DNA from: Microbacteriaceae bacterium
GTDB taxonomy: Bacteria; Actinomycetota; Actinomycetes; Actinomycetales; Microbacteriaceae
Assembly: GCA_947452675.1 (NCBI GenBank)
Contig: CANGDL010000007.1
Span: 1-64,000 of the forward strand
Direction: 5' to 3'
DNA length: 64,000 nt
A program made the position numbers and the translations under genes. Shown here in pieces: positions 24,382 through 38,254 of this stretch (position 1 is the first letter of the stretch; every line of letters begins with the position of its first letter). The notes beneath the pieces were generated by a model. It was not told the DNA's origin, made no database searches, and saw only the letters and a program-made list of their open reading frames with translations.

Positions 24382-26040
24382 TTGACTCCAGCAGATCTTT
24401 CTGCCGCGATTGTTCGCATCCTCTCGGCGCTTCAGGTAAGCGGGCGACTTGGCGCGGCTGAGCTACCAGCCGAGGTTGTCATCGAGAGACCGAAAAATCG
24501 CGATCACGGTGACTGGGCCACCAATGTTGCCATGCAGGTGGCCGGCAAGTTTGGCATGAACCCTCGCGCGTTTGCGGAACTACTCTCACCTGAACTTCAA
24601 GCTCTTGACGGCGTTGCCAAAGTTGACATCGCTGGGCCAGGATTCATCAACCTCGCATTGAGCGCTGCCGCTGCTGGCGAAGCCGCTAAGAAGATTGTCG
24701 AAGCCGGACAAGAGTTCGGCCGCGGCTCTAATTTGGCTGGTTTGAAGCTTAACCTTGAGTTCGTTTCGGCTAACCCAACTGGCCCAATTCACCTGGGTGG
24801 AACTCGGTGGGCCGCTGTTGGTGACTCTTTGGCACGCGTTCTTCAGGCGCAAGGGGCTGAGGTTACTCGCGAGTATTACTTCAATGACCACGGCGCTCAA
24901 ATCGACCGCTTTGCACGGTCGTTGATGGCTGCGGCAAAGGGCGAAGAGACTCCTGAAGATGGCTACGCGGGCGCGTACATCGAAGAGATTGCAAAGCGCG
25001 TTTTGGACGAAACGGCCGTCGATGTCTTGTCGCTCCCAGAAGCGGAAGCTCAGGAGACTTTCCGTGCCGCGGGCGTCGAGCTCATGTTCCAAGAAATCCG
25101 TGAATCGCTTCACGATTTTGGCGTCGACTTCGATGTCTATTTCCACGAAAATTCACTTTATGAATCTAGGGCGGTAGAACGCGCTATCGAGCGCCTCCGC
25201 GAACTTGGGCACATCTTCGAATCTGAAGGTGCAGTGTGGTTGCGCTCGACGACTTTCGGCGACGATCGTGACCGTGTGATCATCAAGAGCGATGGCGAAG
25301 CGGCCTACATTGCCGGCGACCTTGCTTATTACCTCGACAAGCGTTCACGTGGTTTTGACCGTTGCATTTACATGCTCGGTGCCGACCATCACGGCTACGT
25401 CCCGCGCATGATGGCCCTATGTGCCGCGTATGGTGACGAACCTGGAGTGAACCTTGAAATCATGATTGGCCAGCTTGTTTACCTAGTGCGCAATGGTGAG
25501 CCGGTTCGCATGTCAAAGCGTGCGGGAACCGTTGTGACCATGGAAGACCTAGTCAGTGCCGTTGGTGTCGATGCAGCTCGCTATGCCCTCGCACGTTCGC
25601 CAATCAACTCGAACCTGGACATAGATCTCGAACAGTTGGCCAAGAAGACCAACGAAAACCCGGTCTTTTATGTTCAGTATGCGCATGCGCGCACGAAGCA
25701 GGTTGCCATCAATGCGGCAAGCTTGGGCGTAGACAAGAGCGAGTTTTTGCCTGAGCTGCTGAACCATGCATCCGAGTCAGAACTTCTCGCAAAGTTGATT
25801 GAATTGCCTCGCGTGATGGCGTCTTCCGCAGAACTCAAGGAGCCGCACCGCGTTGCTCGCTATCTTGAGGAAGTTGCCGGCGCCTATCACCGCTGGTATG
25901 ACAACTGCCGCGTAACCCCGATCTCGGGCGGCGAAGTTGAGTCGGTTCACCGCACTCGTCTTTGGCTCAATGAAGCGGCCGGTGTGGTCTTGCGCAACGG
26001 TCTAGATCTGCTTGGCGTTAGCGCGCCAGAGAGAATGTAG
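24382..26040 (+). CDS. argS: Arginyl-tRNA synthetase
   Basis: A 552-residue class I synthetase. Visible features are the N-terminal tRNA D-loop-binding domain, [20 protein letters not shown] carrying the HIGH-like motif (HLGG), the MSKRAG motif (KMSKS equivalent, about residue 376) and a C-terminal anticodon-binding helical domain. The TTG start is supported by lack of earlier in-frame starts of family character. It begins the run argS-lysA-hom-thrC-thrB, as in Mycobacterium (Rv1292-1296). Confidence 0.96.
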
Positions 26041-35454: not shown

Positions 35455-36569
35455 TGCGCGCATACCTGTTGACCATGTTGTTCGCAGCAATCATTACTTT
35501 CTTCGGCACTTTTGCGACGCTAAAGATCAGCCACAAATACAAGCTTTATCCGCAGATTCGTGCGCGCGATTCGCACACCAGGCCGACACCACGACTGGGT
35601 GGCGTCGCAATGTTCGCTGGATTCCTGGCTGCGATGGGATTCTCGGCTTGCCTGGGTTGGTTTCAGAGTGTTTTCGTCGAACCCGGTCGCGTCCTAGCAA
35701 TTATCGGCGCCGCTTTTCTGATTACTCTCATCGGATTTCTAGATGACCTGTATGACCTGGACTGGACCCTCAAGCTCGCCGGGCAGTTTGTGGTCGCGGG
35801 CATTCTCGCTTGGCAGGGTGTACAGATTGTTTCGTTGCCAATCGCCGGCATTACCATTGGCAGTTTCGGGCTTTCTTTTGTCGCCACGGTGTTCCTAACG
35901 GTTTTGGTGATGAACGCCGTGAACTTCATCGATGGCCTGGATGGCTTGGTAGCAGGAGTAGTCCTAATCGGCACCAGCGTTTTTTTCGCTTACAGCTACC
36001 TGTTGGCTCAGCAAACTTCACCAACCAACTACTTCAATTTAGCCTCCGTTTTGTCGGCCATCGTCATCGGTATGTGCATCGGATTCTTGCCGTATAACTG
36101 GCACCGCGCCAAGATCTTCATGGGCGACTCGGGAGCCATGTTGCTTGGCATGTTGATGGCGGTTTCTGCTCTAACGGTTACCGGACAGGTTGACCCGCAT
36201 GTAGCCGCTAAGAATGACTTTTTGCCAGCATTCATACCGCTGATCTTGCCACTTGCGATTTTGATTTTGCCTTTGCTAGATTTCACTCTTGCCGTTCTTC
36301 GCCGACTTCGCGCAGGTAAATCTCCGTTCACCGCAGACCGCCAACATCTTCACCACCGTTTGCAGGACTTTGGCCACACTCACCTTGGTTCCGTATTGGT
36401 GTTCTATGTCTGGACGGCACTTATTTCGCTCACCTGCCTGATGTTCTTTTTCATACCAGGATGGGGTGTCGCAATTTTCGCTTTCTTTGGCTTGATAGGC
36501 GCTCTAACTTACACAGTTTGGCCGGTAATCAAGCGTCGGGCATCAATTCGAGAAGGTTCAAATGTCTAG
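35454..36569 (+). CDS. wecA: Polyprenyl-phosphate GlcNAc-1-P transferase (WecA/Rfe type)
   Basis: A 371-residue membrane protein with about ten helices. It transfers a sugar-1-phosphate to undecaprenyl or decaprenyl phosphate, the first step of wall polysaccharide synthesis. Key cytoplasmic motifs are DDLYDLDW, NFIDGLDGL, GDSGAMLLG and HLHHRL. Located before atpI, as Rv1302 is in Mycobacterium. The start GTG overlaps tsaC; the end overlaps atpI by 8 bases. Confidence 0.94.
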   Translation: MRAYLLTMLFAAIITFFGTFATLKISHKYKLYPQIRARDSHTRPTPRLGGVAMFAGFLAAMGFSACLGWFQSVFVEPGRVLAIIGAAFLITLIGFLDDLYDLDWTLKLAGQFVVAGILAWQGVQIVSLPIAGITIGSFGLSFVATVFLTVLVMNAVNFIDGLDGLVAGVVLIGTSVFFAYSYLLAQQTSPTNYFNLASVLSAIVIGMCIGFLPYNWHRAKIFMGDSGAMLLGMLMAVSALTVTGQVDPHVAAKNDFLPAFIPLILPLAILILPLLDFTLAVLRRLRAGKSPFTADRQHLHHRLQDFGHTHLGSVLVFYVWTALISLTCLMFFFIPGWGVAIFAFFGLIGALTYTVWPVIKRRASIREGSNV

Positions 36570-36972
36570 AGCAAACTCATCTGCCGAAATTTTCGCGACC
36601 GTAATGAAGCAAGGCTTCTTGCTCGTGGCAGCCATTGCTGTCATCGGTGGAGGTCTGGGTCTTGCATTTGCAGGGCTAAACGGGTTGATCAGTGGGCTCA
36701 TCGGCGCCGGATTAGCCCTAATCTTCAGCAGCCTTACTGCACTGTCGGTCAGGTTCGGTGGCAAGCTTTCGCTTGGCGGCTTCTTCGGCGTAGTTTTGGG
36801 CGGTTGGATCCTAAAACTGGTTGGTTTTGTCATCCTTATTCGCGTGCTTAAAGGAGCGGTTTTTATCGCTGGGCCGGTGCTTTTCTTCACCTTGGTCGCG
36901 TCAATCCTAGGAACTTTGGTGATTGATTCGCTTGTCGTGACCAGGTCTCGAATCGGCCTCGGTTCAAACTAA
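36562..36972 (+). CDS. atpI: ATP synthase assembly protein I-like
   Basis: A 136-residue hydrophobic protein with about four helices (16-35, 40-60, 72-92, 95-118). Position immediately upstream of atpB and general character match AtpI/Rv1303, proposed to help c-ring assembly. Sequence conservation in this family is low, so the call relies partly on context. Confidence 0.75.
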   Translation: MSRANSSAEIFATVMKQGFLLVAAIAVIGGGLGLAFAGLNGLISGLIGAGLALIFSSLTALSVRFGGKLSLGGFFGVVLGGWILKLVGFVILIRVLKGAVFIAGPVLFFTLVASILGTLVIDSLVVTRSRIGLGSN

Positions 36973-37014: not shown

Positions 37015-37131
37015 TTATTTTCAAAGGGTTTTACCTGTTAGACTGATGAGGTTGCCAAGGGGTTTTTTGGCGACATCACACTGTAAATCGCCGCAAGGCA
37101 TCCCAAACTTGCCCCGAAACAGGAGTTCAAA
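37015..37131 (+). promoter_or_regulatory. Putative atp operon promoter and leader
   Basis: TAGACT (37039-37044) is a plausible -10, with TTATTT (37015-37020) as a weak -35 at 18 bases. The leader has a GCCAA…TTGGC hairpin (37053-37072) and ends with AGGAG (37121-37125). Confidence 0.4.
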
Positions 37132-37974
37132 CTGCTAGCTCAAGCTCTAGGCCTGCTGTCGCACGCAGCCACCACCGATACGTCGGGCAGTTCATTTGAG
37201 GCGCCAAACATTGGCGAGTTTTATCCTCAGGTGATTCTTTTTGCTGGCACCCCATTCGAACTAAACCGAATCATGATGATTCGGTTGCTTGTTACAGCTT
37301 TGGTCCTGGTGGTATTTTTCCTCTGGTCCGGCACCTTCAAGAAGGCATACAAGAACAAGCAGTACGTTCCAAGCCGTTTCCAGTTGATGGGTGAAATCTC
37401 CCTAAACTTTGTCCGCAAGAGCATTGCGCACGAGCAGTTGGGCGAGAAGGATGGCGACCGATTCCTTCCCCTTCTAACCACAATCTTCTTCATCGTTTTG
37501 GGCATGAACGTAACCGGAATCATCCCTTCGCTGAACATTGCAAGCACCGCGCTCATCGGACTTCCGCTGGTTCTAGCGGTGGCTGCTTACTTCACGTTTA
37601 TTTACGCAGGTGTCAAGAAGCACGGCGTTGGATTCTTCAAGAATTCACTATTCCCAGCTGGCGTTCCGGCGGCCTTCTACATTCTCGTGACACCAATCGA
37701 GTTGCTCTCAACTTTCATCCTTCGACCAATCACTCTGGCTCTTCGTTTGACCATGAACATGATTGCCGGCCACTTGTTGCTAGTGCTTTGTTTCTCGGCA
37801 ACCTCATACTTCCTGTTCAATGCCGAAGGTTTCTTCAAGGCATTTGGCGCAGGAACCTTCCTGTTCGGCTTCGTCTTCACTCTTTTCGAGATGTTGGTGG
37901 CGTTCCTTCAGGCCTATGTATTTACTCTGCTGACCACGGTCTACATTCAGTTGGCCCTGGCAGACGAGCACTAA
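37132..37974 (+). CDS. atpB: ATP synthase subunit a, apparent CTG start
   Basis: About 280 residues. The Fo stator subunit that forms the proton half-channels; the essential Arg is in TLALRLTMNMIAGH. The usual N-terminus of actinobacterial homologues (…EFYP…LFAGTPFELNRIM) is encoded upstream of the first GTG at 37231. Between the in-frame TAA at 37084 and 37231 there is no ATG, GTG or TTG. A CTG at 37132 lies 6 bases after AGGAG and gives MLAQALGLLSH. I take this as the start. GTG 37231 lacks a ribosome site and would remove 33 residues. Confidence 0.9.
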   Translation: MLAQALGLLSHAATTDTSGSSFEAPNIGEFYPQVILFAGTPFELNRIMMIRLLVTALVLVVFFLWSGTFKKAYKNKQYVPSRFQLMGEISLNFVRKSIAHEQLGEKDGDRFLPLLTTIFFIVLGMNVTGIIPSLNIASTALIGLPLVLAVAAYFTFIYAGVKKHGVGFFKNSLFPAGVPAAFYILVTPIELLSTFILRPITLALRLTMNMIAGHLLLVLCFSATSYFLFNAEGFFKAFGAGTFLFGFVFTLFEMLVAFLQAYVFTLLTTVYIQLALADEH

Positions 37975-37978
37975 TCAG

Positions 37979-38254
<276 letters not shown>

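Follow-up and report, generated by a model that had tools for sequence, protein, structure and literature searches.

Results

The atpB locus and its reading frame

The window, by which we mean the whole 64,000-nucleotide stretch of DNA analysed, comes from a Rhodoluna-like genus (g1) of the family Microbacteriaceae (f1); Rhodoluna belongs to the Luna-1 subcluster of this family. The atpB region carries the features listed in Table 1. The atpB product matches both Pfam ATP-synt_A (1e-53, 182.9 bits against a cutoff of 33.9) and TIGR01131 (ATP_synt_6_or_A; 147 bits, above its cutoff of 102.6). These matches above the curated cutoffs, together with atpE and the atp operon downstream, identify it as F0 subunit a. 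The neighbouring atpE was confirmed by Pfam ATP-synt_C (1.2e-14), and atpF, H, A, G and D were assigned from their translations and gene order. Upstream of atpB, positions 36562-36972 encode a small membrane-like protein that has no Pfam match at 1e-3 and whose start aligns poorly among relatives; atpI often sits at this position.

Table 1. Coordinates of the atpB start region and of the comparison gene atpE in the window
Feature	Position	Strand	Basis
atpB, F0 subunit a, 280 aa, TAA included	37132..37974	+	Direct reading; Pfam; matches in 60/67 genus genomes
CTG, very probable start codon	37132..37134	+	Homologous place is CTG/TTG/ATG in 59/60 genus genomes
CAGGAG, Shine-Dalgarno, 6 nt before CTG	37120..37125	+	GGAG 6-7 nt upstream in 47/48 genus CTG genomes
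Box CCCCGAAACAGGAG enclosing the Shine-Dalgarno	37112..37125	+	Exact in 36/60 genus and 12/59 family leaders
Possible leader hairpin GCAAG-N10-CTTGC	37093..37112	+	Last base overlaps the box; paired changes, without folding-energy support
In-frame TAA bounding the frame upstream	37084..37086	+	Direct reading
GTG, first canonical in-frame start codon, probably not the start	37231..37233	+	Relatives; weak, distant Shine-Dalgarno
atpE, subunit c, GTG start (comparison gene)	38024..38254	+	Pfam ATP-synt_C; aligned relatives

The open atpB frame is bounded by two TAA stops, at 37084 and 37972. Direct reading bears out the original prediction that the frame holds no ATG, GTG or TTG between the upstream TAA and position 37231, where GTG, 33 codons past the CTG at 37132, is the first. 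The CTG stands, just as had been claimed, exactly 6 nt (TTCAAA) past AGGAG (37121-37125). An ORF lister restricted to ATG, GTG and TTG returns a protein of 247 aa instead of the 280 aa counted from CTG, so the truncation expected of such callers does occur. The further claim that a conserved N-terminal segment is encoded before the first GTG is correct for ...NIGEFYPQ and incorrect for LFAGTPFELNRIM, which lies after that GTG. The GTG itself sits past the conserved EFYP; it is absent in the close relatives L002 and L003 and present in L004. In the 22 nt before it (cattggcgagttttatcctcag), the best Shine-Dalgarno candidate is a weak GGCGAG ending 12 nt away. A PDB sequence search returned 23 distinct subunit a sequences, none with a best stretch covering query residues 1-33. 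Within the atpB N-terminal coding region, positions 37202-37216 resemble a terminator (a hairpin and a T-rich tail), which is likely a chance occurrence (1 found, 0.4 expected).

The start codon in the genus and in the family

Among 67 genomes of the genus, 60 have an atpB match, and the start region could be read in all 60; a locus cut at a contig end (L021) was left out, L061 standing for that genome. With the start taken as the first in-frame NTG located 5-11 nt after GGAG, the start codon is CTG in 48 genomes, TTG in nine and ATG in two, and in the remaining one (L028) CTA occupies the start place, with GTG two codons on. The distance from GGAG to CTG is 6 nt in 43 genomes, 7 nt in four and 9 nt in one, whereas TTG or ATG lies 9 or 10 nt away in 9 of 11 cases. 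There is thus a tendency towards wider spacing with the stronger codons, on which we do not lean, as these rows seem to represent few clades and the start seems shifted by one codon.

The family sample comprised 62 of the 290 matching non-Rhodoluna genomes, chosen from the better-matching ones listed and representing 46 genera. Here, the start codon is CTG in 59 genomes and TTG in three (L068, L077, L078). The CTG count combines 56 loci from a computed set of 59 rows with three read by eye (L079, L080 and L154); repeats or members of genera already counted (L062, L063, L065, L120) and loci from another collection (L127-L130) are outside the counts. A common family form is CAGGAG-NNNGCG-CTG-TTA (or CTA)-GCT-AAC-GCT. 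In L079 and L080, the N-terminus after the CTG start is longer and seems to contain a repeated unit (CTG-TTA-GGT-AAC-GCT-GTG followed by CTG-TTA-AGT-AAC-TCG-GTG).

Taken over the family, the rare codon is conserved: it is found in 107 of 122 genomes, with 47 genera sampled, and in 45 of the 46 sampled sister genera. GTG was not seen at the start place at all and ATG only in 2 of the 122 genomes. CTG also occurs in named records, two of Microbacterium (L128, L130) and one of Goodfellowiella (L129). The comparison with relatives suggested alongside the original prediction thus finds the codon conserved (48/60 in the genus, 59/62 elsewhere in the family), and the predicted CTG start is far more widespread than the window alone could tell. 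Two public records titled Auritidibacter (L094, L124) have atpB on contigs that belong to the window's genus and equal in length those of G048 and G047; these records are probably mis-titled MAGs.

Evidence for initiation at CTG

Judged by ordinary leucine codon usage, chance would put CTG or TTG at this place in 49% of cases for the family rows and 51% for the genus rows. The naive odds of seeing nothing except NTG are then 4e-20 for the family and 4e-16 for the genus (57 of 58 Leu rows), with kinship ignored. Since the rows are related, these odds overstate the case. The kinship objection is answered in part by the codon following the start, which varies in these rows, with 11 different codons occurring in each of the two sets. 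TTA and CTA, which make up 5.7% of leucine codons in the family rows, account for this second codon (37135-37137 in the window) in 38 of the 59.

When NTG was sought in all three frames 5-8 nt past GGAG, it was present in 49 of 60 genus and 57 of 59 family genomes, and every row having one (49/49 and 57/57) had it in the atpB frame. Meanwhile, the distance from the start to the conserved core varies between 20 and 24 codons in the genus and between 19 and 28 in the family (the two core points being three codons apart). A lost CTG is offset by a neighbouring NTG: CTA is followed by GTG two codons on in L028, the start region reads CTT-TTG in L077 and L078, and CCG-TTG or CCC-TTG is found at the start in seven genus members (L005, L006, L007, L014, L019, L020, L031). 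An in-frame stop (TAG or TGA) immediately precedes the TTG start in L051 and L054, and an in-frame TAA lies six bases upstream of CTG in L010, L012 and L022. Going downstream, the next ATG, GTG or TTG is 40-50 codons past CTG in five genus rows (L002, L003, L015, L033, L049) and in 13 rows of the family; two of these 13 have ATG just before CTG.

Some rows offer another candidate beside the CTG. Among the 48 CTG rows of the genus, eight have an NTG directly adjoining it, either GTG before (L035, L042, L043, L046) or TTG after (L010, L012, L022, L023). Similarly, in seven family CTG rows (L064, L066, L069, L070, L071, L141, L168), an ATG lies between the Shine-Dalgarno and CTG, 0-4 nt from GGAG, and in L149 TTG follows CTG, which makes 8 of 56. 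Those rows alone are consequently not decisive. Considering all rows, the comparison of relatives shows the position and the frame of the putative start codon, its restriction to NTG and the preference for CTG.

Start codons of other genes

Within the window's atp operon, atpE starts with GTG and the other listed atp starts are ATG. For 29 loci of relatives, atpE could be aligned in 28 (GTG in 22, ATG in two) and atpF in 26 (ATG in 24, GTG in one); the remaining four atpE and one atpF codons are not start codons, the alignment missing the start there. At the aligned start of the gene preceding atpB, whose N-terminus aligns poorly, ATG is found in 10 and CTG in one of 24 relatives. A coarse screen for conserved upstream frames against two relatives revealed no other gene in the window requiring CTG; the screen is noisy, since it also picks up alignments of overlapping genes and of antisense frames. 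All five genes picked from it by hand for inspection have an ordinary NTG. The argS-like arginyl-tRNA synthetase gene at 24382 starts with TTG, as it does in both relatives compared.

The atpB leader and the Rfam atpB RNA

In the alignment, many genus leaders feature AAATCGCCGC, then a short stem and then CCCCGAAACAGGAG. The layout CCCCGA, 1-5 nt and GGAG recurs in 51 of the 60 leaders from the genus and in 38 of the 59 from the family. The paired-change test used 43 distinct rows, at least one of them misanchored, after eight genus rows lacking the anchor, several of which also lack the stem, had been dropped. Flanking anchors defined 20 distinct pairs of hairpin arms, in which 82.5% of the cells pair, compared with 71% after shuffling; none of 2000 shuffles reaches the observed value. 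In 15 arm pairs, at least five of six positions match, a number that 5 of 2000 shuffles reach. At hairpin positions 2 to 5, genus members have standard pairs differing on both sides. In a search for the best stem, 71% of the 55 distinct leaders from the genus scored at least 5, compared with 14% after single-base shuffling. In the family, an ungapped search of 55 leaders, with three rows lacking the box dropped, gave a weak signal (27% versus 17% in shuffles). The folding energy of genus leaders was not better than that of the coding control (mean z of -1.04 versus -0.98), and in the family it was near zero (mean z of -0.28). The hairpin is therefore suggested by the paired changes and the stem search within the genus.

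An Rfam search of the window revealed no known RNA family of note. The Rfam atpB RNA (RF02916, Cis-reg) does match one locus of another family (L201 of f19, positions 286-400) with 55.7 bits against a cutoff of 37.4, and two further loci fall just under this cutoff (L203 with 37.2 bits and L202 with 34.6). The last 23 positions of RF02916 read GAGAGAACG-CUG-AGCGUUACAAC, and in all three loci the model covers both the Shine-Dalgarno and the CUG. The 3' end of RF02916 probably corresponds to the first codons of atpB, that is, to a coding sequence mistaken for untranslated leader. The window does not belong to this RNA family: the model has no match there at E up to 5, the only hit (E of 1.8) being unrelated. 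Neither did it match 12 Microbacteriaceae loci at the gathering score, or seven when E was allowed up to 10; the Goodfellowiella record L129 and the loci L177, L180, L190, L204 and L205, which likewise have CTG, gave no match either. Although membership fails, RF02916 and the Microbacteriaceae leader are perhaps related in layout. Both are placed before atpB, with a stem, CCCGAACACGGGAG and CUG there and a stem, CCCCGAAACAGGAG and CUG here. They differ in that the model finds no match in the window or in the tested Microbacteriaceae loci, and the start codon inside RF02916 is our present reading.

CTG in other Actinomycetes

We also read by eye 40 hand-picked loci from 24 other families, drawn from overlapping sets of 129 and 128 genomes. 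In 14 of these loci, which belong to 8 of the 24 families, CTG is preceded by a Shine-Dalgarno-like stretch. Such a CTG is found in every sampled locus of five families (f9, 3/3; f11, 1/1; f16, 1/1; f19, 3/3; f32, 2/2) and in part of those sampled from three others (f3, 1/4; f7, 1/2; f12, 2/4). The f3 case (L183), which lacks GGAG, is the weakest of the set. The other 26 loci apparently start with GTG, TTG or ATG, a few of them (e.g. L184) being ambiguous. In Goodfellowiella L129, which we take to be a member of Pseudonocardiaceae, CTG lies six nt past AGGGAG.

Discussion

The original prediction that atpB starts at CTG gains strong support from the relatives, most of which have CTG at the homologous place, and we consider it very probable that atpB initiates at CUG 37132. 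A conventional gene caller, choosing among ATG, GTG and TTG, would instead place the start downstream and leave the stretch between CTG and the core as an untranslated leader; the Rfam atpB RNA, which extends into this stretch in L201, could be read in the same way. This explanation is highly improbable. It leaves unexplained why the NTG past GGAG keeps to the atpB frame in all rows having one, despite the varying length of the stretch, and why, except for L028, the start place varies over NTG only. The downstream candidates differ between species and, in 18 rows, are 40-50 codons away. The GTG at 37231, with its weak and distant Shine-Dalgarno, was rejected on the evidence of relatives, which have no common start at its position. 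That the CTG merely reflects a sequencing or assembly error might be suspected from the state of the window's genome, a 1.4 Mb draft in 28 contigs. Yet the same codon recurs throughout the family, single-contig genomes (G001, G002, G006, G026) included, which refutes such an error and makes this explanation next to impossible.

Two other explanations are compatible with a CUG start and concern the reason for its presence. One is that the CTG has been inherited and tolerated without being selected, the Shine-Dalgarno being strong enough to make the first base irrelevant. The switches to TTG or ATG in 11 of 60 genus genomes and to TTG in 3 of 62 other family genomes agree with this idea, but the absence of GTG and the near absence of ATG at the start place do not. 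Furthermore, switches to CUG are rarely reported, and selection acts towards AUG, according to PMC5622118. Given rare gain and such selection, drift should have removed CTG more often across 46 genera, and we view mere tolerance as unlikely. The other explanation, to which we give appreciable but clearly minority weight, is that the whole initiation region (the hairpin, the CCCCGA box with the Shine-Dalgarno, and CUG) is a regulatory RNA, in which folding or a bound factor gates atpB and initiation, owing to the weak codon, becomes dependent on this gate or on IF2/IF3. It may hold alongside an effect on subunit dose. The recurring CCCCGA-GGAG layout exceeds what a Shine-Dalgarno needs, the genus hairpin has paired changes rarely or never matched by shuffles, and RF02916 ends over the Shine-Dalgarno and CUG in L201, with L203 and L202 under the cutoff. 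On the other hand, the model misses the window, the tested Microbacteriaceae and six other CTG loci, leader folding energy is no better than that of coding sequence, the stem signal fades in the family, and several anchorless genus rows lack the stem.

Returning to the CUG start, the initiator tRNA would begin atpB translation at CUG 37132, which would be read as fMet. Initiation at CUG would be helped both by the strong Shine-Dalgarno, whose spacing is nearly constant, and by a second codon rich in A/U. We envisage that this codon is old in Microbacteriaceae and selectively kept, and that the strong Shine-Dalgarno, the weak start codon and perhaps the leader hairpin together set the rate of subunit a synthesis. 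The F0 sector contains one subunit a per ring of about ten c subunits, and an excess of a is harmful. In keeping with the original suggestion that a weak codon behind a strong ribosome site could set the a:c ratio, the purpose of CUG might be to keep subunit a synthesis low or adjustable relative to subunit c, encoded next door, an idea we hold tentatively, with slightly less than even confidence; the one observation in its favour is that atpE and atpF of relatives start mostly with GTG and ATG, respectively. With about the same reserve, we propose that CUG has been actively kept through the diversification of Microbacteriaceae, and perhaps in older lines of Actinomycetes, as the part that sets the output of a cis-acting leader, at whose end it stands, the leader consisting of the hairpin, the CCCCGA box, the Shine-Dalgarno, CUG and the A/U-rich second codon. 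The supply of subunit a would thereby stay low or follow the levels of initiation factors. In E. coli, CUG has 0.86% of AUG activity (PMC11497404), a level that looks insufficient for an essential subunit unless CUG works better on these ribosomes or in this context.

The infC gene, which encodes IF3, has a conserved AUU start codon and is autoregulated by its own product. The atpB case resembles infC in that a broad clade has conserved a rare start codon in a single essential gene. It differs in both the codon and the gene, and whereas autoregulation is known for infC, what we describe for atpB comes from sequence comparison. PMC5622118 describes GUG and UUG starts compensated by a conserved Shine-Dalgarno, and here too a weak codon stands behind a conserved Shine-Dalgarno; however, CUG is far rarer, making up 0.024% of bacterial starts according to PMC11497404, as well as far less active. 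A further parallel is provided by chloroplast genes with conserved non-AUG starts, for which a layer of control has been proposed (PMC9845219), although those are organelle genes.

Literature searches, with most subscription papers and curators' notes outside their scope, yielded, among the papers listed, none recognisable as dealing with a CUG or CTG start in atpB; in the available excerpts of PMC3890552 and PMC5784534, CTG is named only as a setting for ORF searches. Because CUG accounts for such a small share of bacterial starts, and because the figures in PMC5622118, which cover 68,906 reconstructed starts, sum to only four switches to CUG, we judge a family-wide CUG in a core gene to be new, within the known range of non-AUG starts, as far as the literature was searched. 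If our reading is true, a CUG start conserved throughout a family in a core bacterial gene would have stayed hidden because gene callers usually skip CTG and because part of the region was filed as an untranslated RNA. Gene callers limited to ATG, GTG and TTG would then misplace the N-terminus of subunit a in most of the family. Among the NTG start codons, CUG is the one least used by bacteria, and atpB may offer a natural system for learning how it is used. It bears on whether Actinomycetes discriminate less against CUG and on whether the strength of a start codon sets the dose of an F0 subunit.
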